31,465 nucleotides of DNA from a virus. The notes beneath the pieces were generated by a model. That model worked only from the letters and a program-made list of their open reading frames with translations, was not told the DNA's origin and searched no databases. Positions 664 to 31,041 of this stretch are shown here, piece by piece; positions within the stretch are counted from its first letter, which is position 1, and each line of letters opens with the position of its first letter. The translations under genes were made by a program, and so were the position numbers. The stretch lies in IMG/VR virus record IMGVR_UViG_3300044530_002431, positions 1-31,465 of that record; one strand, written 5' to 3'.

Positions 664-2166
664 ATGTCAATTTTAAGGTCATATATTAACAAGAATAATA
701 CTATTACATCGAACTCATATGTTAATACAGGTAGAAACCCTGTAATTGAGTTAAACTTCGGCGCTTCGGACTATATTGTCCCTAATTACGGATTCACTCG
801 TTGTATCTTTGACTTAGGTTTAGACCTTCTATTAGAAAATATTCAATCAGGTGTAATTTCTACAGGATGTACAACAGGTATGACTCACACTCTTAAAATG
901 ACAAATACATCCTCATTTGACAATGAATTGTTGAATACTTTCATGTCAAATTCAAGAAGGAGAGCCACATCTTTCGATTTGATTTTATTTAGAATTCCTA
1001 ATGTTTCAGGCTCAACAGGAGAACCTCAAGAATGGGATGAAGGTGTAGGGTATGATTATAATGATTTCAACTTAGCAAAAAATAGTGCACAAGGGGGACA
1101 ATCTCCATTAACATATGTTGACCCTAGAAGTTTTTCTACAAGACCATCAAATTGGTATCAAATGACAACGTTGGACAACTGGTCTCAACAAGGATTATAC
1201 AGTAACACCAACTCGGGAAATGTAAATTATTCAGGTTTAACTATAGTAGCAACACAACACTTTGAACTTGGTAACGAAGATGTTGAAATGGACATGACTA
1301 ATGAAATAAATTCAATTATTGATGGGACTCTGACAGGTGTTACGGGGTGGGGATTATCTTATGTTCCTCAATTGGAAAGAATTACCGGACTCACTGACAG
1401 TTATAGTGTTGCGTTTTTTTCAAGACATACACAAACATTTTATCAACCTTTTCTTTTAACAAACTATGATGACCTCATTCAAGATGATAGGAATAAATTC
1501 TTGAAAAACCAAACGAACAAACTTTATCTATACGTTTATCAGAATGGAAACCCCGTAAATCTTGACGATAATCCAACGGTTAAAATTGAGGATGCAAATG
1601 GAAATGTGGTTAGTTCAATGTCATCTTTAACAACATGTCTAAGAACAAGGGGAGTATATGAAGTTGTGGTTCCAAATTCATTTACAGGTAGCCCTACACC
1701 CTGTATGTATTATGATGTGTGGGAAAACTTAGTAATTAATGGTCAACCTATTGCTAATATAACTAACCAATTTATATTACAACAATATTCAGCCGGTATA
1801 CAAATAGGTACATCATCAAGAGAACCTGAAAAATTCGGATTCGATTTTTATGGTATACTTCAAAATGAAAAAATTCTAAACTCTGATATTAGGAAAGTAG
1901 GTGTAACTATTAAAAAAGCTTACACGGGTCAAGTACCTTTAGAAAATATTTCAGCCTTTTACAGAGTATATGTGAAAGAAGGAACAACAGAAGTTCAAGT
2001 CCAAGATTGGACACCGATAAATAGGACACCTAATGAGTATTATTTTATTTTCGATATGAGAGATAAAATTCCGAATCAATATTTTGTCGACATTCAAGTG
2101 AACACAAGTGGTGAAAAAGATACTTATAAAAGAGAATTAACCTTCGAAATTGTAAATAAAAAATAA
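664..2166 (+). CDS. Probable virion structural protein, 500 aa
   Basis: Full-length frame starting at an ATG 13 bases after a TATTTAT motif. The protein is rich in Asn, Thr, Ser, Gly and aromatic residues with little charge, typical of beta-rich virion proteins. It has no signal peptide, membrane segment or catalytic motif that I can see. The C-terminal third (YYFIFDMRDKIPNQYFVDIQV and following) reads like an immunoglobulin-like beta domain. The stop codon overlaps the start of the next gene by one base (TAATG), which suggests translational coupling. The family is not recognised; a baseplate, neck or tail role is inferred only from composition and from the structural neighbourhood. Confidence 0.7.
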   Translation: MSILRSYINKNNTITSNSYVNTGRNPVIELNFGASDYIVPNYGFTRCIFDLGLDLLLENIQSGVISTGCTTGMTHTLKMTNTSSFDNELLNTFMSNSRRRATSFDLILFRIPNVSGSTGEPQEWDEGVGYDYNDFNLAKNSAQGGQSPLTYVDPRSFSTRPSNWYQMTTLDNWSQQGLYSNTNSGNVNYSGLTIVATQHFELGNEDVEMDMTNEINSIIDGTLTGVTGWGLSYVPQLERITGLTDSYSVAFFSRHTQTFYQPFLLTNYDDLIQDDRNKFLKNQTNKLYLYVYQNGNPVNLDDNPTVKIEDANGNVVSSMSSLTTCLRTRGVYEVVVPNSFTGSPTPCMYYDVWENLVINGQPIANITNQFILQQYSAGIQIGTSSREPEKFGFDFYGILQNEKILNSDIRKVGVTIKKAYTGQVPLENISAFYRVYVKEGTTEVQVQDWTPINRTPNEYYFIFDMRDKIPNQYFVDIQVNTSGEKDTYKRELTFEIVNKK

Positions 2167-2627
2167 TGAAAACTAATAGATTAACAGAAACGGATTTAAA
2201 AAGAATTATAGGCAAAGTTTTATCTGAAGAACAATTACCCGAAAATTATATGTTTTTCAGTAACCTTAGACAAATAAAAAGACAATGTGAAATGCTTTTA
2301 GAAATGGATGAATCAATGGTTGATTCCATAATTCAAAATGGTCATGATTGGGCGGATGACCACGTTACAGAAGCCAAAACAAACATGGACCAAGTTTTTG
2401 ATTTTTTTATGAATGAAAAATCTAAAAAAGAATCATACGTTGATTACGAAGACATAACTGAAGCTAAAAAAACAGGTTCTAAACTATGTTCAAGAGGTAA
2501 GGCGGCTGCTAAGGCTAAGTTTAAGGTTTACCCCTCAGCTTACGCTAATGGTTATGCTGTACAGGTTTGTAAAGGTAAGATGCCAGGTCTTGACGGAAAA
2601 AAACATTGTTCAGGTTCTTATTGTTAA
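2166..2627 (+). CDS. Small basic Cys-containing phage protein with N-terminal LTE/LxE helix
   Basis: 153 aa, start coupled to the preceding stop (TAATG). The N-terminus RLTETDLKRIIGKVLSEEQ is an amphipathic helix ending in LSE, which fits the (L/I)xE cleavage consensus of T4-type gp21 prohead proteases. The C-terminus, from about residue 100, is a compact basic module: SKLCSRGKAAAKAKFKVYPSA, then AVQVCKGKMPG and a final HCSGSYC. I recall very similar KFKVYPSAYAN modules in small proteins of large phages and some large eukaryotic viruses, where the function is unknown. The basic Cys-rich tail might bind nucleic acid or zinc. A capsid-internal protein is one possibility, given the N-terminal motif; this is inference. 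Confidence 0.7.
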   Translation: MKTNRLTETDLKRIIGKVLSEEQLPENYMFFSNLRQIKRQCEMLLEMDESMVDSIIQNGHDWADDHVTEAKTNMDQVFDFFMNEKSKKESYVDYEDITEAKKTGSKLCSRGKAAAKAKFKVYPSAYANGYAVQVCKGKMPGLDGKKHCSGSYC

Positions 2628-6243: not shown

Positions 6244-7788
6244 TTATCTAATCTTTGACATTAAATCTTTCATTCTTAGGAATTGAGGATTTTCATATGT
6301 CTTAGATTCGATTAATGTTGTCGCAGAACCTGAAGAAACTTCTTTATTAAGTTTTGTTTCGACAGTTTCGTTGATTGATTTAGTTTCTGTCTTAGATAAT
6401 TCGTCTTTGATTGATTTATAAAGAGTTTTTGACTCTTTTAAACTTTCTACAGAATCGAATCTTCTAAGAATATTTATTTTTTCTTTCTTAGTTGTTGAGT
6501 GTTCAGTGAATAATCTTGTTGCATATGCGAGATTAGAGTTAAAAATTGCAACTTCGTTCAATTTTTCTCTAAATACATTTAATGCTTTTCTGTATTCTTC
6601 ATTTTTTTCTCTCAACATACTAACTTCTGCATCAATTGATTCCTTTTTTACGTTAGCATTGAAACCTGAGTGAGCTCTTGGTTTTGGTAAACCTCCAGGT
6701 GTTCTGAAATTAGTACCACTACCTAAAGTTCTTGGTGACTCTTTAGCTTCAACTTTTTTAACCATTTTATTTTTACCAACTTCCGCATTTTCTCCCTTAC
6801 CGAATTTTACTTTTTTAGCATTACCAGTTCCTACAGATTTAGGACCTTCTTTCATTTTTGTATTGAATCCACCGCTTTCTTTCTTGTAAGAAAATTTAGG
6901 TCCTTTACCAAGTCCAAGTCCTTTAGCTTTAACTGACATTTTAGCTTCTTTAGTTTCTTTCTTGGGAGATTTTTTGTGGTTGTAAGATTCACCCATCATT
7001 GCTTCATCATCTGACTCTTCATCATCTGACTCTTCCATTATGTCGTCATCATCTGACTCTTCCATTATGTCGTCATCATCTGACTCTTCCATTATGTCGT
7101 CATCATCTGACTCTTCCATTATGTCGTCATCATCTGACTCTTCCATTATGTCCTCATCATCGTCCAAAGAAATTTCATAAACAATTTCTTCATCTTCGAT
7201 GTCGTCTTGAGATACGTCTGACATATCTGAGTCAGAACTGAATATCGCATCTAAAACGTCATCAATGTTTTCATTTGTTTCGTGCTCCATTTCATTAAAG
7301 TTTTCATCAATGTTTATTTTTTCGTTTTCTGCTTCACCAAGTTTTACAACATATTCGGTGTCGGCATCATTGTCTTTAAGATGAATGTCTTCACCGTCTT
7401 TTTTTACGATAATTCCATCATCTTCTCCCATTGCCTTGAAAACCTTTAGGAGTTCTTCTTCGTCCTCGATGTGAGTCAAATCAATTGGAGCTTCTTCCGA
7501 ATCCATATCTAGCTCGAAAGATTCTTCATCAGATTCTTCATCTTCGGGTTCAACTTCAGATTCATCGTCAAATGACATCTCCATATCTGTTTCGATATCA
7601 TCTTCCATTTCATCATCAGCTTCTTTTACAACCTCATCCTCATTTTCGGAAAGAGATTCTTTTACTAATTGGTTGATTTCTTCCTTCATTGTTGAAGCAA
7701 GTATTCCTTTTGCATTTTCGGCAATTGCTTCCTCAACGTTTTTCATTTGAATAAGCGCCTCTTGTACTAAATTTTTATTTTCTTGCAT
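6244..7788 (-). CDS. Prohead scaffold/core protein, T4 gp22-like, with acidic 9-aa repeats
   Basis: 514 aa, directly upstream of the capsid gene (31-base gap), the gp22 position. Residues 1-50 are helical with LxE-type sites (LVQE, SLSE). Residues 50-265 are extremely acidic and include about five tandem DIMEESDDD units (213-257). Residues 270-380 are basic and Gly-rich. Residues 384-468 form a helical domain (SMLREKNEEYRKALNVFREK, then LNEVAIFNSNLAYATRLFTE, then KKEKINILRRFDSVESLKES) that I take to be the conserved capsid-interacting scaffold domain of T4-related phages. Scaffolds are degraded by the prohead protease during maturation, and low-complexity acidic sequence fits that. A TATTTAT motif lies 24 bases upstream. 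Confidence 0.82.
   Translation of the reverse strand: MQENKNLVQEALIQMKNVEEAIAENAKGILASTMKEEINQLVKESLSENEDEVVKEADDEMEDDIETDMEMSFDDESEVEPEDEESDEESFELDMDSEEAPIDLTHIEDEEELLKVFKAMGEDDGIIVKKDGEDIHLKDNDADTEYVVKLGEAENEKINIDENFNEMEHETNENIDDVLDAIFSSDSDMSDVSQDDIEDEEIVYEISLDDDEDIMEESDDDDIMEESDDDDIMEESDDDDIMEESDDDDIMEESDDEESDDEAMMGESYNHKKSPKKETKEAKMSVKAKGLGLGKGPKFSYKKESGGFNTKMKEGPKSVGTGNAKKVKFGKGENAEVGKNKMVKKVEAKESPRTLGSGTNFRTPGGLPKPRAHSGFNANVKKESIDAEVSMLREKNEEYRKALNVFREKLNEVAIFNSNLAYATRLFTEHSTTKKEKINILRRFDSVESLKESKTLYKSIKDELSKTETKSINETVETKLNKEVSSGSATTLIESKTYENPQFLRMKDLMSKIR
7018..7152 (-). repeat. 27-bp tandem repeat inside the scaffold gene
   Basis: About five near-identical 27-base units (core GACTCTTCCATTATGTCGTC on the plus strand) encode DIMEESDDD. 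The units are almost identical in DNA as well as protein, so they probably expanded recently or are kept homogeneous by recombination. The unit length is a multiple of three, so copy number can change without a frameshift. Confidence 0.9.
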
Positions 7789-19824: not shown

Positions 19825-20113
19825 CTTTGAGTGGTGTTACTTCGTTAATCTTCATTAATAGAGGTTTGATATAGTCATTCAATTCCTCTCTTGTTATTTC
19901 GAAACCATAATCTTTTACATAACTAAGTAAATAATTCATTTTGTTTTGAAATTTATCGAAAAGATTCATCATCTTAAAGGTATAACTAGGAGGGTCATCT
20001 AACTGAGATTCACTAAAACCTAACTCTTGAAAATGTTGTCTCAGTTCAAAATAAACATCTAACGCTTGTCTTAAAGAAATATTATCTTCTAATAATTTTT
20101 CAAATGGTTTCAT
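19790..20113 (-). CDS. Hypothetical helical protein, 107 aa
   Basis: Predicted to be nearly all helical (MKPFEKLLEDNISLRQALDV and DKFQNKMNYLLSYVKDYG), with a charged C-terminal tail. No family or catalytic motif is recognised. It is the first gene of a pair with the KTSC gene. The start codon is five bases after a TATTTAT motif and only 17 bases from the divergent dioxygenase start. Confidence 0.6.
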   Translation of the reverse strand: MKPFEKLLEDNISLRQALDVYFELRQHFQELGFSESQLDDPPSYTFKMMNLFDKFQNKMNYLLSYVKDYGFEITREELNDYIKPLLMKINEVTPLKDGSNERDNTGD

Positions 20114-20118
20114 ATAAG

Positions 20119-20125
20119 ATAAATA
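20119..20125 (-). promoter_or_regulatory. TATTTAT late-promoter-like motif
   Basis: Exact TATTTAT five bases before ATG 20113, inside the 17-base gap between divergent start codons. Confidence 0.55.
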
Positions 20126-20130
20126 TTATT

Positions 20131-20691
20131 ATGGAACCATTCATTTTACATGGAGTATTAAATAAAAACATAATAAATCATTTTTTATCCTGCATCGATA
20201 ACTTAGATTGGGATGATTACGTGGAAAGACAAAAAAAATACTTTACTCACAGGCAAACCAAAACAATACCAATAATATTCGACAAATCTTTCAATTTGCA
20301 ACATTTTAATCCACATTACACTGAGAATTACAATTTGTTTCAAGAACAAATTAGTATAATTGAAAAAATAATTGATGAAAGTGTTGGTGAAAAAGGAAAA
20401 ATTTTCAGAGCCATTTTAGTTTTGTTACCTTCGAAAAAACTAATACCTCCACACATAGACATTGTCGGAAAATCTTTAGAAATCGGCAAAAGGTGTCATG
20501 TTGCAATCCAAACTAACGAAGATTGTTTATTCACGGTAGGTGATGAAACAAAACATTTATCTGTTGGTGAGATTTGGGAAATTGATAACTGTGGACAAGA
20601 ACATTCAGTATCTAATTTGGGTGAAACCGACAGAATTCATTTAATTATTGATTGGGTTTCAGAGTCATTTCTACTATCTCACAAAATTTAA
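20131..20691 (+). CDS. Aspartyl/asparaginyl beta-hydroxylase-like Fe(II)/2-oxoglutarate dioxygenase
   Basis: 186 aa from ATG 20131; an upstream in-frame ATG at 20104 would put its first codons inside the divergent gene and adds residues unlike the family. Family features are LIPPHIDIVG with His108, KRCHVAIQTNEDCLFTVGDE, the GEIWEIDN strand, and EHSVSNLGETDRIHLIIDW with His158 and Arg168. His108 and His158 are the likely iron ligands and Arg168 the 2-oxoglutarate anchor, since AspH-type enzymes use two histidines. The substrate could be a host or phage protein; the sequence does not say. It is followed two bases later by a sulfotransferase gene, so the two are co-translated and may act on the same target. 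Confidence 0.8.
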   Translation: MEPFILHGVLNKNIINHFLSCIDNLDWDDYVERQKKYFTHRQTKTIPIIFDKSFNLQHFNPHYTENYNLFQEQISIIEKIIDESVGEKGKIFRAILVLLPSKKLIPPHIDIVGKSLEIGKRCHVAIQTNEDCLFTVGDETKHLSVGEIWEIDNCGQEHSVSNLGETDRIHLIIDWVSESFLLSHKI

Positions 20692-20693
20692 AA

Positions 20694-21359
20694 ATGTTAT
20701 CAACATCTAATAAAATTATTTTTTTACAACCTCCAAAGTCAGGTTCAACATCGTTAACAAAAATGATAGAATCTTTAGGGTTAGGGTTTTCATTCCCAAA
20801 CGAATCTTATTGGAAACCTAAAATTCATCTTTTTCTTTCTGAAATTGTCGAGTATTTTGAAATAGAAAATTTAAACGATTATAAAATAATCCAAGTTACT
20901 CGCAATCCTTACTATAGGTTTTGTAGTGGATATTTTCACCTAATGAAATTATTAAAAAATGTGAAAACGAGTTCACCTGTGAAAAATATGAATTTTAATG
21001 AATTTACAAATCATGTTTACTCTGTTAGGGATTCAAAGGATTTAATTACAGACATTTTTGTGGATACATTATTTATCGAAAAATTTATAGAATACAAATT
21101 ACATTGGGGTGGAAGTAGAGTTTTTTTTAATCAAGTCCATTGGAACGACTTGAACCATGTTGTTAATTATATAAAATTAGAAGACATATCTTCTAATGCA
21201 GAACCTCTACAAAACCTACTTAACACCGATATACCTAAATTACCCTTACTAAATCGTGGTAGTTTTGAATGTTATGAAGAATTATTGACCAGTGATATTA
21301 AAGAAAAAATAGGGTTAATTTATTCGAGAGATTTTGAAACATTAAATTATATCCAATAA
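20694..21359 (+). CDS. Sulfotransferase family protein, 221 aa
   Basis: Start chosen at ATG 20694, two bases after the dioxygenase stop; a TTG at 20652 in the same frame lies inside the preceding gene and is less likely. PPKSGSTSL (13-21) is the 5'-phosphosulfate loop and IIQVTRNPYYRFCSGY (65-80) is the 3'-phosphate motif, with Arg70 and Ser78 in the expected positions for PAPS binding. The family transfers sulfate from PAPS to sugars, lipids or tyrosines. No membrane anchor is present, so a cytoplasmic enzyme is predicted. The acceptor is unknown. A host surface glycan, changed to block other phages, or a phage virion protein are both possible. Confidence 0.82.
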   Translation: MLSTSNKIIFLQPPKSGSTSLTKMIESLGLGFSFPNESYWKPKIHLFLSEIVEYFEIENLNDYKIIQVTRNPYYRFCSGYFHLMKLLKNVKTSSPVKNMNFNEFTNHVYSVRDSKDLITDIFVDTLFIEKFIEYKLHWGGSRVFFNQVHWNDLNHVVNYIKLEDISSNAEPLQNLLNTDIPKLPLLNRGSFECYEELLTSDIKEKIGLIYSRDFETLNYIQ

Positions 21360-21394: not shown

Positions 21395-21787
21395 TTAAAG
21401 AATGGAAATTCTTTTCTTTTCTTGTTTTTTAAAATTTGGGACAAATACAGTTAGGAGTCCGTCCTCAATAGTCGCCTCAACCGAAGAAGGGTCATATCCG
21501 TCACCAATTCTGAATTCTTTTTTTATGGTTTTGACTTTTTCATCACCATTTAGTTTATATGTTCTACTACCATTGATGTAAAGATTACCATTCTCCATCT
21601 CTACTTTCAAAGTTGATTTGTTAAAACCTGGTGCATCGAAGAATAGGTATGCACCATCTTTTGTGTGGTTAATTTCATAATTGTTTTCGGTGTCATCATT
21701 TCTGATAATTGATGTTTTGTAATGAACATTTGGACTACCTCCAAATACTCTGTCAAAGATGTCGTTTAAATCTGAACCGTAAATCAT
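21395..21787 (-). CDS. Small heat-shock protein (Hsp20/alpha-crystallin)
   Basis: 130 aa. The alpha-crystallin domain runs from about residue 38 to 120: GAYLFFDAPGFNKSTLKVEM, then NGNLYINGSRTY and KKEFRIGDGYDPSSVEATIE, with the hallmark ATIEDGLLTVFVP. A C-terminal ISIL provides the I-x-I/L motif that binds neighbouring subunits. The N-terminal arm is short (IYGSDLNDIFDRVFGG). As an ATP-independent holdase it would keep unfolding or newly made proteins soluble. It is divergent from a Clp ATPase gene across a 199-base region rich in inverted repeats, which suggests joint control. Hsp20 genes are known in T4-like cyanophages. Confidence 0.9.
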   Translation of the reverse strand: MIYGSDLNDIFDRVFGGSPNVHYKTSIIRNDDTENNYEINHTKDGAYLFFDAPGFNKSTLKVEMENGNLYINGSRTYKLNGDEKVKTIKKEFRIGDGYDPSSVEATIEDGLLTVFVPNFKKQEKKRISIL

Positions 21788-21986: not shown

Positions 21987-24005
21987 ATGTCACACGATTT
22001 AATGGATGATGAAGAAAAAATGAGTAGTAAAAAACAAAAACAAAATTCGGACAGTAATACTCCTGTCTTGGATAACTTCAGTAGGGATTTAAATAAACTT
22101 GCTGAATTGGGTAAACTTGACCCAGTTATCGGTCGTGATAGAGAAATTTTAAGATTAGCACAAATTCTTTCTCGAAGAAAGAAAAACAATCCAATTATCA
22201 TTGGTGAACCCGGTTGTGGTAAAACGGCTCTTGTTGAGGGTCTCGCTATTAAAATCGTTAAAGGTGAATGTCCTCGTAATCTTATTGACAAGAGAATTGT
22301 TAACCTTGACTTGACCTCCGTTGTTGCCGGTACCAAGTACCGAGGACAATTCGAAGAAAGGATGAAAGTTATAATTGAAGAACTTCAAGCAAATCCTAAC
22401 ATTGTAGTTTTCATTGACGAAATTCACACACTTGTGGGTTCAGGTAATTCTGCGGGTTCTATGGATGGGGCGAACATTTTCAAACCTGCTCTTTCAAGAG
22501 GAGAAATCCAATGTATCGGAGCAACAACTTTGGATGAGTTTCGTAAGAACATTGAAAAGGACGGTGCTCTTGAGCGTAGATTCCAAAAAGTAATAGTTGA
22601 ACCTTCATCTGTGGCTGAAACAATTCAAATTCTGAAAAATATTAGAGATAAGTATGAAACATTCCATAAAGTTAATTACTCTGATGAAGTAATCGAAACT
22701 TGTGTGAAACTTGCTGACCGTTACATCACTGACCGAGAATTTCCTGATAAAGCATTTGACATCATGGATGAAGTAGGTGCAAGAATGCAAACTGAATTGA
22801 AGGTTCCCGCTTCTATTGAGGAATTGAAGAAAAAGGCGGCAGAAATACGTCAACAAAAAATTGACGTTGTAAAGAAACAAAATTATGAACAGGCTGCTCA
22901 ACTCAGAGATAAAGAAAAGAAACTCATTGATAAATTAGAGGCCGAGAAGAAAAAGTTCGAAGAAGAATTAGAGAAAGACAAGCAGAAAATTTCTTTGGAG
23001 GATGTTTACGACGTGGTTTCGAACATGGTAAAAATCCCTGTAAGTAAAATGAGTGTAGATGATACGAAAGCATTACTCAATATGGATAAAGTTTTATTCG
23101 ATAAAGTAATCGGTCAAAACGATGCTGTTAGAAAGATTGTTAAATCTATCAAAAGAAATCGTTTAGGTATCAAGGACCCAAATCGTCCTATCGGGTCATT
23201 CGTATTTTTAGGGTCAACTGGTGTTGGTAAAACTCACTTGGCTAAACAACTTGCAAAAGAAATGTTTGGTAGTGAAGATTCACTAATCAGGGTCGACATG
23301 AGTGAATATCAAGAAAAACATACAGTATCTAAACTTGTGGGAGCACCTCCCGGCTACGTAGGTTATGAAGAAGGTGGTATGTTGACTGAAAAAGTAAAAA
23401 ATAAACCATACTCAGTAATTCTATTTGATGAGGTAGAAAAAGCACATAAAGATGTTTTTACAGTACTACTTCAAATCTTAGACGATGGTCATGTAACAGA
23501 TAGTTTAGGTAGAAAGATTAATTTTAAAAATACCTTAATAATTCTTACCTCAAACTTGGGTGTAAAAAAACTTCAGGATTTTGGTACGGGAATAGGATTT
23601 AGTAATAACTCTTATTCTAATGAAGAAGCAAAAAAACAAATGTTAATGAAAGAGATGAAAAATTTCTTTTCTCCTGAATTTATTAACCGTATCGACGATA
23701 CTATTGTTTTTAATTCTCTCAGTTCAGATGACATCAAAAAAATTACTGAAATTGAACTAAAAAAATTAGTTTCAAGATTGGGTGATATGAAATATAATAT
23801 TACTTACGATGAATCATTAGTCGAATATCTTTCTAAAATAGGATATGATGAACTCTATGGTGCTAGACCACTCAAAAGAGCAATTCAAGATAAAGTCGAA
23901 GATTTGCTTTCCGAGGAAGTACTCACAGGAAAACTCATTGAGGGTAAATCCTATCAAATTAAAGTTGATGGTGAAGAAGTAATTGTACAAAAAAAGGGAC
24001 GATAA
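21987..24005 (+). CDS. Clp/Hsp100 AAA+ unfoldase, ClpA/ClpC-like, lacking the N-domain
   Basis: 672 aa with two AAA+ modules: Walker A GEPGCGKT (73-80), Walker B VVFIDE (140-145) and arginine-finger region ERRF (196-199) in D1; Walker A GSTGVGKT (409-416), Walker B ILFDE (478-482) and the pore segment GAPPGYVGYEEGG in D2. Between them lies a short UVR-like middle helix pair (QQKIDVVKKQNYEQAAQLRD) as in ClpC. The usual ~140-residue Clp N-domain that recruits adaptors is missing, replaced by about 30 charged residues. GIGF (535-538) in D2 matches the ClpP-docking loop. The simplest reading is a phage unfoldase that can use host ClpP, since no protease partner is seen here. A terminator overlaps the stop codon. 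Confidence 0.9.
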   Translation: MSHDLMDDEEKMSSKKQKQNSDSNTPVLDNFSRDLNKLAELGKLDPVIGRDREILRLAQILSRRKKNNPIIIGEPGCGKTALVEGLAIKIVKGECPRNLIDKRIVNLDLTSVVAGTKYRGQFEERMKVIIEELQANPNIVVFIDEIHTLVGSGNSAGSMDGANIFKPALSRGEIQCIGATTLDEFRKNIEKDGALERRFQKVIVEPSSVAETIQILKNIRDKYETFHKVNYSDEVIETCVKLADRYITDREFPDKAFDIMDEVGARMQTELKVPASIEELKKKAAEIRQQKIDVVKKQNYEQAAQLRDKEKKLIDKLEAEKKKFEEELEKDKQKISLEDVYDVVSNMVKIPVSKMSVDDTKALLNMDKVLFDKVIGQNDAVRKIVKSIKRNRLGIKDPNRPIGSFVFLGSTGVGKTHLAKQLAKEMFGSEDSLIRVDMSEYQEKHTVSKLVGAPPGYVGYEEGGMLTEKVKNKPYSVILFDEVEKAHKDVFTVLLQILDDGHVTDSLGRKINFKNTLIILTSNLGVKKLQDFGTGIGFSNNSYSNEEAKKQMLMKEMKNFFSPEFINRIDDTIVFNSLSSDDIKKITEIELKKLVSRLGDMKYNITYDESLVEYLSKIGYDELYGARPLKRAIQDKVEDLLSEEVLTGKLIEGKSYQIKVDGEEVIVQKKGR

Positions 24006-24017
24006 GTCCCTTTTTTT
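23993..24017 (+). terminator. Rho-independent terminator of clp
   Basis: AAAGGGAC pairs with GTCCCTTT across GATAA, followed by a T run. The hairpin includes the last codons and stop of the Clp gene. Confidence 0.85.
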
Positions 24018-24024
24018 ATATTTA
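24017..24024 (+). promoter_or_regulatory. Possible host-type -7 box (TATATTTA)
   Basis: TATATTTA overlaps the end of the clp terminator T run and ends six bases before ATG 24031. It differs from TAnnTTTG only in the last base. Position just after a terminator supports a promoter, but the match is imperfect. Confidence 0.4.
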
Positions 24025-24030
24025 ATATTG

Positions 24031-24789
24031 ATGAGGGAACTAATAAAAAAAATATTAAATGAAATTGTCACAAATAATAAAGTTATTTGTGATAACTGTG
24101 GATGGTCATGGAATTTGAATGATGGGGGAAAAGACCCATACACTTGTCATAAGTGTGGACATGAAAACAAAGTAGAGGTTGAAAAAAATAATTTCGAGAA
24201 AGTAATTGATAACTTCACCTCAACTAACTCAGATATTACAAATGAAATATCCCTTAAAATAAAAAAATTTGTTTATGACTTTTTGAAAAATAGGGGTTAT
24301 AATATAAAATTTTTAAAGGCATGTTCAGGATATAATGGGGTTAGAACAAAAGACCAAATTATAATTTGTTCACCTAGTTCAATGTGGAGTTTAGGAGATT
24401 TTCTTTACACATTATTTCACGAAGTTAGGCACGAACAACAAGTATCCGATTTGAAAATGCAAAACCCTCTTTCCGAAATGGATTTAGACGATTTCGAAAA
24501 ATTATATCAAAAATATTGGGATATGGAGTTAGATGCTGACCAGTATGCAAAAAATATGTTAGGTAAACTTGTCAGTTCAATGAATTTAGAAAAGTCCAAA
24601 ATTTCAAAAATATTTAAAGTTTCTTCTTTTATAGAAAACTATCCTCAGGCCTCCGATTATGTAAAAAGTGGTATCAAAAATATAGTTGATTCTATCAAAC
24701 TAATGAAAAGTCAAGGACAATCTTTTGAAGATATCCAAGACCATCCAATAGTCAAATCTCACATAAGTAAGCTGGAAAATTTTATTTAA
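24031..24789 (+). CDS. Zinc-ribbon HExxH metalloprotease-like protein
   Basis: 252 aa from ATG 24031; an in-frame ATG at 23983 lies inside the Clp gene and its terminator, so it is rejected. Residues 1-12 (MRELIKKILNEI) form a helix ending in LNE, a possible prohead-protease site. Residues 17-47 are a zinc ribbon (Cys20, Cys23, Cys39, Cys42; ICDNCGWSWNLNDGGKDPYT, then CHKCGHEN) of a type I recall from many large-phage proteins. Residues 127-138 contain LFHEVRHEQQ: His130, Glu131 and His134 are the catalytic zinc site, with Glu166 in DMELDADQYA as the likely third ligand. Role unknown; it could process host or virion proteins. It overlaps the convergent peptidase gene by four bases. Confidence 0.75.
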   Translation: MRELIKKILNEIVTNNKVICDNCGWSWNLNDGGKDPYTCHKCGHENKVEVEKNNFEKVIDNFTSTNSDITNEISLKIKKFVYDFLKNRGYNIKFLKACSGYNGVRTKDQIIICSPSSMWSLGDFLYTLFHEVRHEQQVSDLKMQNPLSEMDLDDFEKLYQKYWDMELDADQYAKNMLGKLVSSMNLEKSKISKIFKVSSFIENYPQASDYVKSGIKNIVDSIKLMKSQGQSFEDIQDHPIVKSHISKLENFI

Positions 24790-25622
24790 AGGTAAATTCT
24801 GTTTGGATTTTGTTTTTGTACTTCCTTAAAATGTAAGGTATATCCCAAAGATTCTATCATTTTTTTACCCATTTCAATTCCATTATACACATCTTCTATA
24901 ACAACATATTCATTCCTTGTGTGATAGTCGTAGTATCCTATGGAAAAATTGATACATGAAAAATTAAATTGTGTCCTTAGTGCATATACATCAGTATAAG
25001 GATGTGTCATATATTGTCTGAATTCAGGGTGCATTCCCTCTGTAAGGACCTTATCAATTTTAGAAAAAAATTCACTTTCTCTGTCAAAAAGTACTTGACC
25101 AAAACATCTTTCAGTAATCATCCAATTTTCAGGTGCGTCAAACTGAATTCCATACCCGACGTTTTTAAAAAACTCTGGGTCTGCTTTACGTGAACCATGA
25201 CATCCTGTTTCTTCAGAAACAAAAAAAGCAGCCTTTAAGTATGGTTGTTCATCAAGTAGTGTTAAACAAGCGAAAACACCGGCTTTATCATCACCTCCAA
25301 TACCCGTTGGGTTACCACTATCATTATATGCCTTAAGTGAAAGTTTGATTTCTTTCTGAGCATTGGGTAGGTATTCTTCTCTGATGTTTATTGAATCGAT
25401 TGTATGTACTGTGTCTGTATGAGAAATGACGCACGGAAAATAAAAATTTTCCTCGACTTCATCAATTTTTTTTGTTGCATAAACATTGCCGAATTGGTCA
25501 ACGTAATATTCGATATTTTTTTTGTGTAACCACTCGACAATGAATTCAATCATTTTGTCTTCTTGGTAAGTTTTGGTAGGAACACTGAGTACCGACTTTA
25601 AAAAGGGTATATTATAATTCAT
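24786..25622 (-). CDS. M20-type zinc aminopeptidase/dipeptidase-like protein
   Basis: 278 aa. The di-zinc site of the M20/M28/M42 clan is visible: His68 and Asp70 (ISHTDTVH), Asp111 (TGIGGDDKAGV), catalytic Glu137 and ligand Glu138 (VSEETGCHG), Asp162 (IQFDAP) and His234 (YDYHTRNEY). It is shorter than peptidase T (about 400 aa) and lacks room for the inserted dimerisation domain of M20 enzymes. It would release amino acids or hydrolyse a small amide substrate in the cytoplasm, perhaps recycling peptides made by Clp-type degradation; that link is inference. A TATTTTTG box ends four bases before the ATG, so the message is probably leaderless. Confidence 0.8.
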   Translation of the reverse strand: MNYNIPFLKSVLSVPTKTYQEDKMIEFIVEWLHKKNIEYYVDQFGNVYATKKIDEVEENFYFPCVISHTDTVHTIDSINIREEYLPNAQKEIKLSLKAYNDSGNPTGIGGDDKAGVFACLTLLDEQPYLKAAFFVSEETGCHGSRKADPEFFKNVGYGIQFDAPENWMITERCFGQVLFDRESEFFSKIDKVLTEGMHPEFRQYMTHPYTDVYALRTQFNFSCINFSIGYYDYHTRNEYVVIEDVYNGIEMGKKMIESLGYTLHFKEVQKQNPNRIYL

Positions 25623-25634: not shown

Positions 25635-26681
25635 CTAAATTTCTGCCAATTCTCCAATTTTAAATAATTCCGGTTGGTAAAGAAGATTATAAAAATTTTC
25701 TTCAGTTAATTTCAACTCTTTTGCTTTGAGTTTTTTTTGTAATTTTACAATAATTTTTTTTGTAGGAAAATCATAACCTACTATTGAAAATCTTGTTTCT
25801 TTCGATTTGTCTTTTGGTAAGAATTGGAATTCTCCTGTGGGAAATTTAGAGGAAACTCTATCAATCATTTCTATGTATTTTTTGTTTCCTTCGTCTTCAA
25901 ATTTTTCAATAATTTTATCTAATTCCCATTGAACATCATTATTAAATCTTTCATTATCAAAAACTGTATCGCTTTGGTATTCCCACAAGTTGTCATACCA
26001 CCCCCCAACACTATCTTCGTTTTCGTAGATTTTTTTTATTAATTCTTTCGGTGTAAGATGAGGTGTTCCTAATCTTAAATAATTGTAGTATAAATCAGCG
26101 GCAGATGTGTATAAATTATCACGAGTTAAACCAAAACCCTTACTTCCTAAATATTCTTTTAAATCTTCTTCCATTTTATCTCTTGCAAGTGTGGTGATTT
26201 CATTATTTCTTTCATTCGTATAAGCGTCAATAATATTAGTTAATTCTTTTTTGGAATAATCGTAAAGTTTATCATAAAGTTCGTTAGAAAATTTATCTGA
26301 GTTTAGGTCAAATTCCATCGGTACAAGAACTTTGGATATCAATTTAAACTTGTCCATATTTTCTTCGTTTAGAGCATACCATAGTCCGTACCCACTTCTA
26401 AAATCCTCTACTGCCGAAGACCTATCAATCGGGTCATAAGAACTATATGGATTTGTTATTACATTATAGAACCAAGCATCATCATCCGAAATATTTAACA
26501 ATTCGAATACATTACTAATGTTTCCGAAATCAAAATAAATTTTACTTTGAGGTAATTTGTTTCTATCTAATCTAATTTCTTCTACATTATCAGAATTTGA
26601 AGTATTACTAATGAACTCAGTTGGGTTAATTTTACCCTTGATAAAATTTTTTAAATTAATAAAGAAATCGTAAGATGCCAT
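25635..26681 (-). CDS. Hypothetical protein, 348 aa
   Basis: Acidic, mostly helical protein with no signal peptide or membrane segment. Distinctive parts are an N-terminal MASYDFFINLKNFIKGKINP, a Trp/Tyr-rich middle (SGYGLWYALNEEN, GGWYDNLWEYQSD) and a basic C-terminal segment (KKIIVKLQKKLKAKELKLTE). No catalytic motif or family is recognised. It is preceded by a TATTTAT motif seven bases before the ATG, unlike the peptidase downstream which has a host-type box, so the two may be expressed at different times. Confidence 0.6.
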   Translation of the reverse strand: MASYDFFINLKNFIKGKINPTEFISNTSNSDNVEEIRLDRNKLPQSKIYFDFGNISNVFELLNISDDDAWFYNVITNPYSSYDPIDRSSAVEDFRSGYGLWYALNEENMDKFKLISKVLVPMEFDLNSDKFSNELYDKLYDYSKKELTNIIDAYTNERNNEITTLARDKMEEDLKEYLGSKGFGLTRDNLYTSAADLYYNYLRLGTPHLTPKELIKKIYENEDSVGGWYDNLWEYQSDTVFDNERFNNDVQWELDKIIEKFEDEGNKKYIEMIDRVSSKFPTGEFQFLPKDKSKETRFSIVGYDFPTKKIIVKLQKKLKAKELKLTEENFYNLLYQPELFKIGELAEI

Positions 26682-26701: not shown

Positions 26702-26732
26702 TTTGGTAAATAAAAATATTGTACTATATTTG
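26702..26732 (+). promoter_or_regulatory. Bacteroidota-type promoter of the tmRNA
   Basis: TTTG (26702-26705), a 19-base spacer and TATATTTG (26725-26732) match the Bacteroidota housekeeping promoter in both elements. The mature tmRNA begins about 20 bases downstream, consistent with a short 5' leader removed by RNase P. Confidence 0.8.
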
Positions 26733-26752: not shown

Positions 26753-27166
26753 GGGGAAGTCACGGCATTGATTGGCGTGTGTAGGCATAGGTGGCACGTA
26801 GGAGCTGAGCTAACTCCTTTAAAACTGGTTTGAACAATAACAGGCGAAACTATCGCTAAACTTTCTGCTATCGGTCTTATCCGTGAAGAAAGTGTTGTTA
26901 CTGCCTAATTGGTAGGGAACAATGTCGGGTCGGTAAGGACATACACCTAGGAACAGAAGTCCATGAGGTTTAACAAATACCGCGTGATTAAGTTCAGGAA
27001 ATTTGTTTGAGCACATCGGCTGGCTCACTAAATCCGAGTCGGAACAGGTTTGTTGGTTACTCTGCAAGAAACCAACTATTTGTTGATTGTGAACAATCAA
27101 ATAAACGTGTAGTCATTTATGGTTATCGCGAACAAGACACGGGTTCGACTCCCGTCTTCTCCACCA
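26753..27166 (+). ncRNA. ssrA: Transfer-messenger RNA (tmRNA)
   Basis: The 5' GGGGAAG (26753-26759) pairs with 3' CTTCTCC to form a seven-base-pair acceptor stem followed by an encoded ACCA end (27163-27166). Just before it is a T arm, ACGGG-TTCGACT-CCCGT. The 5' region GGCATTGATTGGCG stands where tmRNAs carry the reduced D-loop. A hairpin (GGAG/CTCC) precedes the tag frame. The likely tag begins at 26843 with GETIAKLSA and ends REESVVTA at 26905, followed by TAA (26906-26908): 21 residues, starting with GE as in Flavobacteria tags but much longer and lacking the ALAA end. It would rescue stalled ribosomes with SmpB; no smpB gene is visible here, so host SmpB is presumed. Confidence 0.93.
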
Positions 27167-27169
27167 ATT

Positions 27170-27197
27170 AAAAGGGTTAGATTTCTAACCCTTTTTT
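27170..27197 (+). terminator. Rho-independent terminator of the tmRNA
   Basis: AAAAGGGTTAG pairs with CTAACCCTTTT across a four-base loop, followed by a T run, starting four bases after the tmRNA CCA end. Confidence 0.88.
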
Positions 27198-27759: not shown

Positions 27760-30700
27760 ATGAAAAAGCAAATCATGATGTCACTTTTGACCTTATTCGT
27801 GACAATCACATCTTTCGGGCAGATTACTACATCGACCCTGTCAGGTGTTGTGAAAGATGAAAAAGGCGAAAATTTGATTGGTGCAACGATTGTTGCGGTT
27901 CACCAACCAACAGGTACAAAGTACGGTTCTTCAACAAACGCGAAGGGGGCGTATTTCATCCCTGCAGCTAGAGTTGGTGGTCCTTACATAATTAAAGCAA
28001 CTTATTTAGGTTATAAACCTAAGGAGTATTCGGATATCGTAACTTCTTTAGGATTAACGACTAATGTGAACTTCGTTCTTCAAAGTGAAACAACGACTTT
28101 GGGTGAAGTTGTAGTTGTTGCTGGCTCAAGAAACAGTACATTCTCAAAAGAAAGAACTGGTGCAGCTCAACAATTTAGTCGTAGAGAATTACAAGCAGTT
28201 CCAATCACGGGTGCAAGAACTATCGATGGTATTACAAAATACAACCCATTCGGTAATGGTTCTTCATTTGGAGCTCAAGATTCTCGTCTTAACAACTTTA
28301 CGATTGATGGTTCGCAATTTAATAACAATTTCGGACTTGGTTCATCAGCACAGGCTGGTGGAAGAACTGGAGCATCAGCAATTTCTTTAGATGCTATTGA
28401 ACAGCTTCAAGTTAACGTAGCACCTTTTGATATTCGTCAAAGTGGTTTTATTGGTGCTGGTATCAACGCGGTTACCCGTTCAGGTACTAACGAAATTGAA
28501 GGTAGTTTTTACAGAACAACAAGAGATAACAGTTCTCGTTATGTTGGTGATAATGCAAGAGGTACCAAAGTTACCGCATCTCAATTTGATGAGAAGGTTA
28601 ATGGTTTCCGTTTAGGTGCACCTATCATCAAGAACAAATTATTCATATTTGGTAACTACGAAGAAATTGTTAAAACTGAACCAGGAACTACTTGGATTTC
28701 AACTGGTTCTCCATTAACAGGTTCTCAAGTTTCAAGACCAACATATCAACAACTAACTCAACTTTCTACATTCATGAAAGAAAAGTTTGGTTATGAAACA
28801 GGTCCTTTTGAAGGATACTCAAACGCAAACTCTTCAAAGAAGTTTTTGGTGAGAGTTGACTGGAACATTAATGACAAGAACAAGTTAACTGCTCGTTATG
28901 TACATCATAATTCTGACGCTGAGATTAATATTTCAAACTCACAATCAGCAGGATTTGGTAACAGAACTCAGAACATTAATGCAATGTCATTCAAAAATAG
29001 TGGATATGTTATCATGGATAACACTCGTTCCGCTGTATTGGAATTAAACTCTAAGTTTTCAACAACATTACATAACAACTTAATTGTTTCATTTGATAAA
29101 CAAATTGAGGATAGAGCATATCTTTCTCAAATGTTCCCAACTATTGATATCAAAGAAGGCGCAACAACACTTACTTCTGTAGGTTTTGACCCATTCACAC
29201 CTGGTAACAAATTAGATTACGCAACATTTAACGTAACTAATAACTTAACCAAGTATTTGAATAAGCACACTCTTGTTGGTGGTTTCAACTTCCAAAAATA
29301 TCAATCTAACAACTTATTCTTCCCAGCATCTAATGGTGTTTACATCTTTAACAGTTTGGCGGATTTCTATACAGCAGCAAACCAATCATTGGCTAACGGA
29401 GGTGCACCTTCAACGTTTGCACCAGCTCGTTTCCAATTACGTTATTCTGCGTTACCAGGAGCGGTAGAACCAATGCAAACTCTTAAATCAAACAGATTAG
29501 ATTTATATCTACAAGACGAGTTTGATGCTACTGAAAATTTAAAATTAACTTTTGGTATCAGAACAAATATTATCAACCTTGAAAACACGGCTTTAGAAAA
29601 CCCTACAATAACTTCAATGACTTTTGCTAATGGTGAAAAGTTCAATACAGGCGTAATGCCGAAAACACAAGTATTGTGGGAACCAAGATTTGGATTTAAC
29701 TATGACTTAAAAGGTAAAAGTAAAACACAGTTCAGAGGTGGTACAGGTGTATTCACGGGTAGACCTCCATATGTTTTCTTATCTAACCAAATTGGTAACA
29801 ACGGTGTGTTAACAGGATTTATTGATGTATCAGGAGCGGCAGCTGCGGCATACGGATTCACGGCAGACCCTAACAAATATTTCATACCTTCAACACCAAC
29901 ATTACCTTCAACATTTGATTTAGCTTTAACTGACCCTAATTACAAATTCCCTCAAGTTTGGAAAACAAACTTAGCAGTAGACCAAAAACTACCAGTTTTG
30001 GGATTAATATTAAGTGCTGAGTATCTTTACAATAAAACAATCAATGCTGTTCATTACTACGAAGCTAACTTACAGAACCCTGTAGGTACTTTAGGTGGTG
30101 TTGACAACAGACCTCGTTTTGGTGGCACAGATGCAACAGTTAGAGTTAATAACAACGTAAGTAGAGCTGCGGTTCTTACAAACAAGAACGGAGCGTTCCA
30201 CGAATCATTAACATTTAAATTAGAAAAACCAGTTCAAAAAGGTCTTTGGGGTTCATTTGCTTGGACAACTGCAAACTCAAAAGATTTCATGAGTGCTGGT
30301 TCAATCGCGAGTGGTTCTTGGCAATCAGCGTTATCGGTTAACGGAAACAATGATTTACAACTATCATTTGCAGACGCGTTTATTAAGAATAGATTCGTAG
30401 GTTTATTAGGTTATAGAATCGAGTATGGTAAAAAGTATGGTGGAGCGACAACCCTAACATTAGGTTATGTTGGTCAACAATCTAACCCATTCTCTTACAT
30501 TGTGGCGGGTGACTTAAACGGTGATAGAGTTAATAACAACGATTTATTATTTGTACCTGTAAAAGGTTCTGATATTAAATTCTCACCGCTAACAGTTGGT
30601 ACAAGAGTTTATACTGAAGCAGAACAACAAGCAGCATTTGACGCATTTATCAACCAAGACGATTACTTATCAACTCGTAGAGGACAATATGCTGAAAGAA

Positions 30701-31041
30701 ATGGTGGTTTACTACCTTACTTACACAGATTGGATTTCTCAGTTGCTCAAGACGTATTTGTTAAGATTGGTGGAAAGAAAAATGCATTCCAAATTAGAAT
30801 GGATATCTTGAACTTTACAAACATGTTAAATAATAATTGGGGAGTATCTCAAAGAGCTACCGCACCTCAGTTGTTAAACTTTGTAAGTAGAGACGCTAAC
30901 AACGTTCCATCTTATAGATTGGCAACTCAAAGATTAACTAACGGCACAACAATATTAGCAAGAGACACATATCAATACAATTCATCTGTATTTGATGTAT
31001 GGAGTGCTCAGTTAGGTATTCGTTATCTCTTCGGTAAATAA
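27760..31041 (+). CDS. TonB-dependent outer-membrane receptor, Oar-like, with carboxypeptidase-regulatory-like domain
   Basis: 1093 aa, intact. Residues 1-21 are a signal peptide (MKKQIMMSLLTLFVTITSFG, cleavage after FGQ as usual in Bacteroidota). Residues 26-108 form a CarboxypepD_reg-like beta domain (STLSGVVKDEKGENLIGATI). EVVVVAG (116-122) is a possible TonB box. The plug follows (LNNFTIDGSQFNNNFGLG, GINAVTRSGTNEIEGSFYRT) and then a long 22-strand-type barrel; it ends WSAQLGIRYLFGK, an aromatic C-terminal strand as expected for BAM assembly. DLNGDRVNNNDLLF is a calcium-loop-like segment typical of Oar proteins. This is a bacterial outer-membrane transporter family. It has its own terminator, and its codon choice (many C-ending codons) resembles the capsid gene. 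The substrate cannot be deduced. Confidence 0.93.
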   Translation: MKKQIMMSLLTLFVTITSFGQITTSTLSGVVKDEKGENLIGATIVAVHQPTGTKYGSSTNAKGAYFIPAARVGGPYIIKATYLGYKPKEYSDIVTSLGLTTNVNFVLQSETTTLGEVVVVAGSRNSTFSKERTGAAQQFSRRELQAVPITGARTIDGITKYNPFGNGSSFGAQDSRLNNFTIDGSQFNNNFGLGSSAQAGGRTGASAISLDAIEQLQVNVAPFDIRQSGFIGAGINAVTRSGTNEIEGSFYRTTRDNSSRYVGDNARGTKVTASQFDEKVNGFRLGAPIIKNKLFIFGNYEEIVKTEPGTTWISTGSPLTGSQVSRPTYQQLTQLSTFMKEKFGYETGPFEGYSNANSSKKFLVRVDWNINDKNKLTARYVHHNSDAEINISNSQSAGFGNRTQNINAMSFKNSGYVIMDNTRSAVLELNSKFSTTLHNNLIVSFDKQIEDRAYLSQMFPTIDIKEGATTLTSVGFDPFTPGNKLDYATFNVTNNLTKYLNKHTLVGGFNFQKYQSNNLFFPASNGVYIFNSLADFYTAANQSLANGGAPSTFAPARFQLRYSALPGAVEPMQTLKSNRLDLYLQDEFDATENLKLTFGIRTNIINLENTALENPTITSMTFANGEKFNTGVMPKTQVLWEPRFGFNYDLKGKSKTQFRGGTGVFTGRPPYVFLSNQIGNNGVLTGFIDVSGAAAAAYGFTADPNKYFIPSTPTLPSTFDLALTDPNYKFPQVWKTNLAVDQKLPVLGLILSAEYLYNKTINAVHYYEANLQNPVGTLGGVDNRPRFGGTDATVRVNNNVSRAAVLTNKNGAFHESLTFKLEKPVQKGLWGSFAWTTANSKDFMSAGSIASGSWQSALSVNGNNDLQLSFADAFIKNRFVGLLGYRIEYGKKYGGATTLTLGYVGQQSNPFSYIVAGDLNGDRVNNNDLLFVPVKGSDIKFSPLTVGTRVYTEAEQQAAFDAFINQDDYLSTRRGQYAERNGGLLPYLHRLDFSVAQDVFVKIGGKKNAFQIRMDILNFTNMLNNNWGVSQRATAPQLLNFVSRDANNVPSYRLATQRLTNGTTILARDTYQYNSSVFDVWSAQLGIRYLFGK

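Follow-up and report, generated by a model that had tools for sequence, protein, structure and literature searches.

A phage tmRNA with a conserved 21-residue tag, encoded near a ClpC-type unfoldase: a possible private tag-and-destroy system in T4-like huge phages

The DNA that we analyzed, called the window here, is a 31,465-base virus record from IMG/VR. Its head and packaging module is of the T4 type (gp23 major capsid, gp20 portal, gp17 terminase and a gp21-type protease). The features at and around its tmRNA gene are the following.

21395..21787, minus strand: Hsp20 small heat-shock protein (PF00011, E 2e-13), in many but not all relatives
21987..24005, plus strand: ClpC-type AAA+ unfoldase of 672 aa, no N-domain, M-domain kept, GIGF loop (Pfam; PHROG 4871; best PDB match ClpC)
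23983..24789, plus strand: probable zinc metallopeptidase with an HEVRH motif (read from the translation), not in every relative
24786..25622, minus strand: M20-like peptidase between ClpC and the tmRNA (phrog_4191, E 1e-35; Pfam M20, E 2e-4, below the Pfam cut-off; synteny)
25635..26681, minus strand: fast-evolving conserved 348-aa protein that separates the peptidase from the tmRNA (26-42% identity; detected in 23 of 26 regions)
26702..26732, plus strand: candidate Bacteroidota-type promoter, TTTG-N19-TATATTTG (TAnnTTTG element kept in relatives)
26753..27166, plus strand: one-piece tmRNA (ssrA) gene (ARAGORN; RF00023; paired acceptor stem with G3-U70; encoded CCA)
26843..26908, plus strand: tag reading frame GETIAKLSAIGLIREESVVTA with stop TAA, resume codon GGC (conserved 21-codon frame, changes mostly synonymous)
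27170..27195, plus strand: intrinsic terminator directly 3' of the tmRNA (sequence signal)

ARAGORN and the Rfam model RF00023 agreed on a one-piece tmRNA at exactly 26753-27166, and the RF00023 match spanned the whole model (1-374) with 75.2 bits against a cut-off of 47 (E 1e-27). The acceptor stem (GGGGAAG/CTTCTCC) is paired at all 7 bp and contains G3-U70, the alanine identity; the T arm is present and ACCA is encoded. A preliminary description of this DNA had called the tmRNA structurally complete. We restrict that statement to the tRNA-like domain and the tag, because the pseudoknot region scores poorly, with low posterior and many non-standard pairs in the RF00023 alignment. A nucleotide search with the window tmRNA among named phages gave no match.

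The sequence TTTG-N19-TATATTTG stands 20 bases upstream of the tmRNA. The form TTTG-N19-TAnnTTTG is the promoter type of Bacteroidota, and as a single site in the AT-rich window it is not above chance. What makes the candidate promoter convincing is its retention across relatives and not the window site alone: the TAnnTTTG (-7) element lies upstream of the tmRNA in 22 of 23 relatives, which are not independent of one another, compared with 3.3% of random 62-mers.

A chimeric contig, in which a host tmRNA and an outer-membrane protein gene had been joined to phage genes, was ruled out: collinearity between the window and a 321-kb phage contig extends across both flanks of the tmRNA and takes in the outer-membrane protein gene. 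This gene (27760-31041) encodes a Bacteroidota outer-membrane beta-barrel protein of 1093 aa with a carboxypeptidase-regulatory domain, and is a standing phage gene. It is syntenic and 77% identical in the 321-kb relative, and shares 68% identity with genes of Sediminibacterium and further Chitinophagales; taken with the promoter type, this similarity makes freshwater Bacteroidota the probable hosts. Elsewhere in the window, two overlapping genes (20104-20691 and 20652-21359) encode aspartyl/asparaginyl beta-hydroxylase-like and sulfotransferase-like proteins, and in the 321-kb relative this pair was not detected at the corresponding site. A short N-terminal leader recurs on several unrelated proteins; it reads RLTETDLKRIIGKVLSEE in the window (2166-2627) and NRILEMHSGKKNVISEQ in a sister-lineage genome, G084 (L421:2656-3066 and 6761-7462), and is perhaps a sorting or processing signal.

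The tag codons occupy 26843-26905 and are followed by a TAA stop at 26906-26908, giving the peptide GETIAKLSAIGLIREESVVTA. The 21-residue tag had been written in this form in the preliminary description, and it was borne out by the ARAGORN call, by a conserved frame of 21 codons and by constraint at the protein level. The resume codon GGC is the site where host Bacteroidota tmRNAs resume (the GGC of GENNYALAA and GETNYAMAA). The resume position is 91 in the window compared with 96-98 in host tmRNAs, and the upstream context also agrees; we found no placement of the resume codon elsewhere that gives an ALAA-type tag. Of 90 sequences with a tag of this family, 89 stop after exactly 21 codons and one after 23. 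Scans with a pattern of the first eight codons added further members of the family, and the matches inside tmRNAs stop at 21 codons whereas those outside tmRNAs do not.

Comparison of the window with one relative (L219) showed that 18 of 63 nucleotides of the tag differ while 18 of 21 amino acids match, which was equaled in none of 5000 random simulations. Third positions are the most variable among the tag codons (permutation p = 0.006), and pN/pS is 0.53 when read in the tag frame, compared with 0.72 and 0.94 for the two alternative frames. Because the variation is biased toward synonymous changes, the window and L219 match so closely, and pN/pS is lowest in frame, the tag peptide is, judged from its substitution pattern, maintained at the protein level. 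In some relatives (L082, L088-L091 and L096-L101) ARAGORN misplaced the resume codon and printed short tags like AEEATVVA. We rejected the short reading, since it starts inside the same conserved frame and loses its most conserved half. Surveys based on ARAGORN would miss the tag family because of this misplacement.

For comparison with hosts, we used 25 Bacteroidota genomes that carry relatives of the window outer-membrane protein gene. In every one with a readable tmRNA, the tag is 8-10 residues long and ends in LAA or MAA, e.g. GENNYALAA and GETNYAMAA, and the difference from Bacteroidota tags that had been read from the window alone therefore stands. Other phage tmRNAs with plain short tags exist, e.g. 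ANPEFAMAA.

The T4-like huge-phage lineage was sampled by terminase and not by tag. Terminase relatives were taken from IMG/VR (36 records, up to 321 kb), and the records were searched whole with RF00023. A tmRNA was found in 23 of the 36, each with a tag of the same family. A terminase search of the sister lineage gave 24 more records with a tmRNA, all 24 with a homologous tag of the GNVINKLSAVGLIRAEEAVVA or GNVLNKMATIGLIREDAAVVA type, 21-22 residues long. Thus one tag family, of 21-23 residues, occupies 48 of 48 RF00023 tmRNAs (the window, the 23 and the 24), so that the long, non-canonical tag is shared by the related phages. Because many of the tag sequences come from close relatives, these counts overstate the number of independent events, and the firmer comparison is that between the two terminase clades, whose ClpC proteins are 68-71% identical.

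The family consensus is G-N/E-T/V-x-x-K-M/L-A/S-x-x-G-L...V-x-A. Among 38 distinct tags, four positions never vary (K6, G11, L12 and the final Ala), and two more are nearly invariant (G1 and the antepenultimate Val); the most conserved positions fall within the first 12 residues and not at the C-terminus. All 38 end in Ala (10 in VAA and 10 in VVA), and in most of them T, K, E, G or V precedes this Ala. The window tag ends in VVTA, and none of the 38 ends in LAA or MAA, so the canonical end of the ssrA degron is absent. In the 321-kb relative, no other protein carries a tag-like C-terminus or the tag motif. Two other huge-phage tmRNAs have putative long tags, each a single sequence: DNVNSFEQSILNELFAPVEMAVAA (24 aa) at L417:5507-5863 (LR756504.1) and GVNNADYESAGFTAEDFAQMDGESLYHGSERKPAAV (36 aa) at L419:4434-4880 (LR756508.1).

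The window ClpC matches PHROG 4871, an ATP-dependent protease, with E 3e-243, and its best solved relative is ClpC. It has two AAA+ modules with both Walker motifs and both pore loops, and a UVR-type M-domain. These features are common to 14 aligned relatives, except for small changes in one pore loop of G084, and the ClpP-docking loop, GIGF in the window, reads [IV]GF in 14 of 14. The N-terminal double Clp_N domain, the usual binding site of ClpC adaptors, is absent, and the first AAA+ module is preceded by about 20 residues. The phage protein is an N-domain-less form that probably works like ClpC. Beside the intact gene, G084 also carries an extra fragment corresponding to the second AAA+ module of ClpC (L421:7523-7987). 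In another genome, G112 (L545:13207-15432), the ClpC frame is 741 aa long and has an altered N-terminus without the first Walker A motif; the change may be an insertion.

The order and orientation ClpC, M20-like peptidase, tmRNA are kept in 26 of 26 regions, the sister clade included, with ClpC down to 68% identity. Hsp20 and the putative metallopeptidase are often present in this neighborhood. The M20-like peptidase had no match in PDB, and searches of Pfam and PDB with the HEVRH protein likewise gave none. For the 348-aa neighbor, considered as a possible adaptor, no significant fold match was found in PDB or viral libraries despite a high-confidence AlphaFold model (pLDDT 88).

A true ClpP is encoded in 26 of 34 virus records (PF00574, E 8e-58), with the Ser-His-Asp residues readable in the motifs GMAASMG, MLHQ and RDFWLSAEE. 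Its distance from the tmRNA is 22-26 kb for the first clade, compared with about 59 kb for the sister clade, so that the two are not tightly linked. Most of the records lacking ClpP end before its usual site; in G085, ClpP is missing at the usual place and the flanking genes are present. Neither ClpP nor SmpB was found within the 31-kb window, and no SmpB was found in four relatives of 317-321 kb (G062 included); host SmpB presumably serves the phages without their own. In one sister lineage (G081 and G084), SmpB adjoins the tmRNA, and tmRNA, SmpB, ClpC and ClpP all occur together; the tag of these two genomes, GETIAKLSAVGLIRSEEVVTA, is one of the nearest to the window tag. ClpC, ClpP and tmRNA are also found in other huge phages without the tag family, some with short ordinary tags. 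GOLLD RNA (RF02032, 273-328 bits) was noted about 1-2 kb from tmRNA, SmpB or ClpC genes at L421:2153-2560 (G084), G081:207804-208211, G111:107553-107961 and LR745206.1:420875-421280; in the 317-321-kb relatives it lies elsewhere in the genome.

We consider it an even chance that the phage reroutes the products of ribosome rescue to its own ClpC-ClpP by means of the 21-residue tag. A more far-reaching version, to which we give somewhat less than even probability, is a host-independent pathway in which the tag, written by the phage tmRNA (in one lineage with phage SmpB), is a private degron read only by phage ClpC-ClpP, so that stalled products are recycled or selectively removed without competing for host ClpXP. 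The steps that we infer, from expression and charging to recognition by ClpC, degradation and peptide recycling, would be as follows. The phage tmRNA would be made from its own host-type promoter and charged with alanine, and together with SmpB (mostly that of the host; the phage's own in one sister lineage) would rescue stalled ribosomes during infection. In place of the short LAA/MAA degron of the host, the 21-residue tag would bring a conserved inner block (K-[ML]-[AS]-x-x-G-L) together with a terminal Ala. Its hydrophobic, Ala-ended C-terminus could be gripped by the pore, and the inner block, which is absent from host tags, may be read by phage ClpC or by a phage adaptor, e.g. the 348-aa neighbor. 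Adaptor binding by the N-domain is established for ClpC/MecA-type adaptors; a ClpC without an N-domain presumably cannot use them, which is why we suggest the inner block as the recognition site for ClpC or an adaptor. Phage ClpC would then dock on phage ClpP, or possibly on host ClpP where none is visible, as in the fragment represented by the window, for degradation, and the released peptides could pass to the neighboring M20-like peptidase. Against this proposal, ClpP is only loosely linked to the tmRNA and is missing from its usual place in G085, the window contains neither ClpP nor SmpB, ClpC, ClpP and tmRNA also occur in huge phages that lack the tag family, and host ClpX may still bind the conserved final Ala. 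A syntenic phage backbone can, moreover, keep two genes together by inheritance alone, with no functional tie between them.

In the main rival to the ClpC-ClpP proposal, the Ala end is still recognized by host ClpXP. On this view the tmRNA does no more than boost rescue, the tag has drifted yet still works as a degron for host ClpXP, ClpCP or Lon, and other tasks fall to the phage ClpC and ClpP; we regard this as rather unlikely, while giving it real weight. Engineered ssrA variants ending in LVA serve as degradation tags in E. coli (PMC9382460), and the invariant final Ala and the VAA and VVA ends seen in the tags agree with such a reading. Most of these phages lack SmpB and rely on host parts anyway, and phage tmRNAs with plain tags exist. 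However, host degrons do not explain the conserved length of 21 residues or the invariant K-x-x-x-x-G-L, and drift would not hold the window and L219 tags at 18 of 21 residues across 18 nucleotide changes. Moreover, Ala-Ala-COO is the main ClpX determinant (PMC7652416), whereas the penultimate residue of the phage tags is mostly K, E, T, G or V. The preliminary description had proposed that, for lack of an LAA end, tagged proteins do not reach host ClpX in the usual way. Such a diversion is uncertain, because the final Ala is conserved and host ClpX may still bind. Its suggestion of another protease is plausible, since ClpC, and in most cases ClpP as well, is encoded by these phages; the suggestion that tagged proteins are spared found no support in the present analysis.

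We think it improbable that the tag is not, or not only, a degron, its inner block binding a phage factor, directing tagged proteins to some destination or sparing them from host proteases. The strongest conservation does lie in the first 12 residues, unlike in a pure C-terminal degron. However, the final Ala and the Val near the end are also conserved, the neighbors are proteolysis and chaperone genes, and we know of no non-degradative use of a tmRNA tag.

Conservation might instead come from RNA structure or codon constraint in an enlarged coding loop of the tmRNA, the peptide being of little consequence. There are few synonymous changes in the first eight codons within the GNTFAKMA group, and the pseudoknot region is unusual. 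Against this, different groups use different codons for the same residues (window and L219; TTT/TTC, GCT/GCA/GCG, CTT/TTA), third positions vary most and pN/pS is lowest in the tag frame, which makes this explanation very improbable. Finally, tmRNA genes (ssrA) are frequent attachment sites of prophages, and a captured host gene or integration scar without function in the phage could be imagined, but it is effectively refuted by the full synteny with the 321-kb contig on either side of the tmRNA, the gene order kept in 26 of 26 regions and the constrained frame of a tag unlike any host tag seen, in a complete gene with promoter and terminator at the same place in all relatives.

Tags of tmRNAs are normally short degrons for host proteases, and the well-studied exception is the Mollicutes, which switched tag and protease together. 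If the proposed ClpC-ClpP route is true, it would add a second example in which tag and reader changed together, here inside a cell with a standard host system. It would also offer a testable reason for the presence of tmRNAs in large phages, and provide a candidate orthogonal degron with a matching ClpC and ClpP.

The window tmRNA resembles the host tmRNAs of Bacteroidota in matching the whole RF00023 model, in its resume position and GGC start, in the G3-U70 stem and in the Bacteroidota-type promoter; it differs in its 21-residue tag with a V-x-A end, in the poor match of its pseudoknot region and in its location in a phage genome. Phage tmRNAs, sometimes with SmpB, were described for Melnitz (PMC9004378), for huge phages (PMC7162821), and for mycobacteriophages and Bacillus phage G (PMC4131195). 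As in the present case, their carriers are large lytic phages with SmpB at times, but the Melnitz tmRNA is two-piece and that of the window one-piece, and the portions of these three papers available to us describe neither a conserved phage-specific family of long tags nor a fixed order of ClpC, peptidase and tmRNA. The closest named relatives are the huge phages LR745206 and LR756502 (ClpC 58%; ClpP 63% and 49%), in which SmpB is present; no tmRNA over the cut-off was found in LR745206.1 and LR756502.1 (L407 and L409; 635-642 kb), where a divergent one may be missed.

In a literature of incomplete coverage, which makes this weak evidence of novelty, we found no published report of a phage tmRNA with such a tag or gene order. 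The long private tag family with the ClpC-peptidase gene order is apparently unreported, and we treat the combination as a novel variant because phage tmRNAs and the long Mollicutes tag are already known, as far as the available portions of those sources go. The extended Mollicutes tag is that of Mesoplasma florum, mf-ssrA, which works with mf-Lon (Gur and Sauer 2008, as cited in PMC9382460). As far as that citation describes it, the two systems share a longer tag without LAA and a dedicated protease in the same genome; they differ in that the Mollicutes tag has an NYAFA end and is served by Lon, whereas the phage tag ends in V-x-A, has no NYAFA and is linked to ClpC with ClpP.
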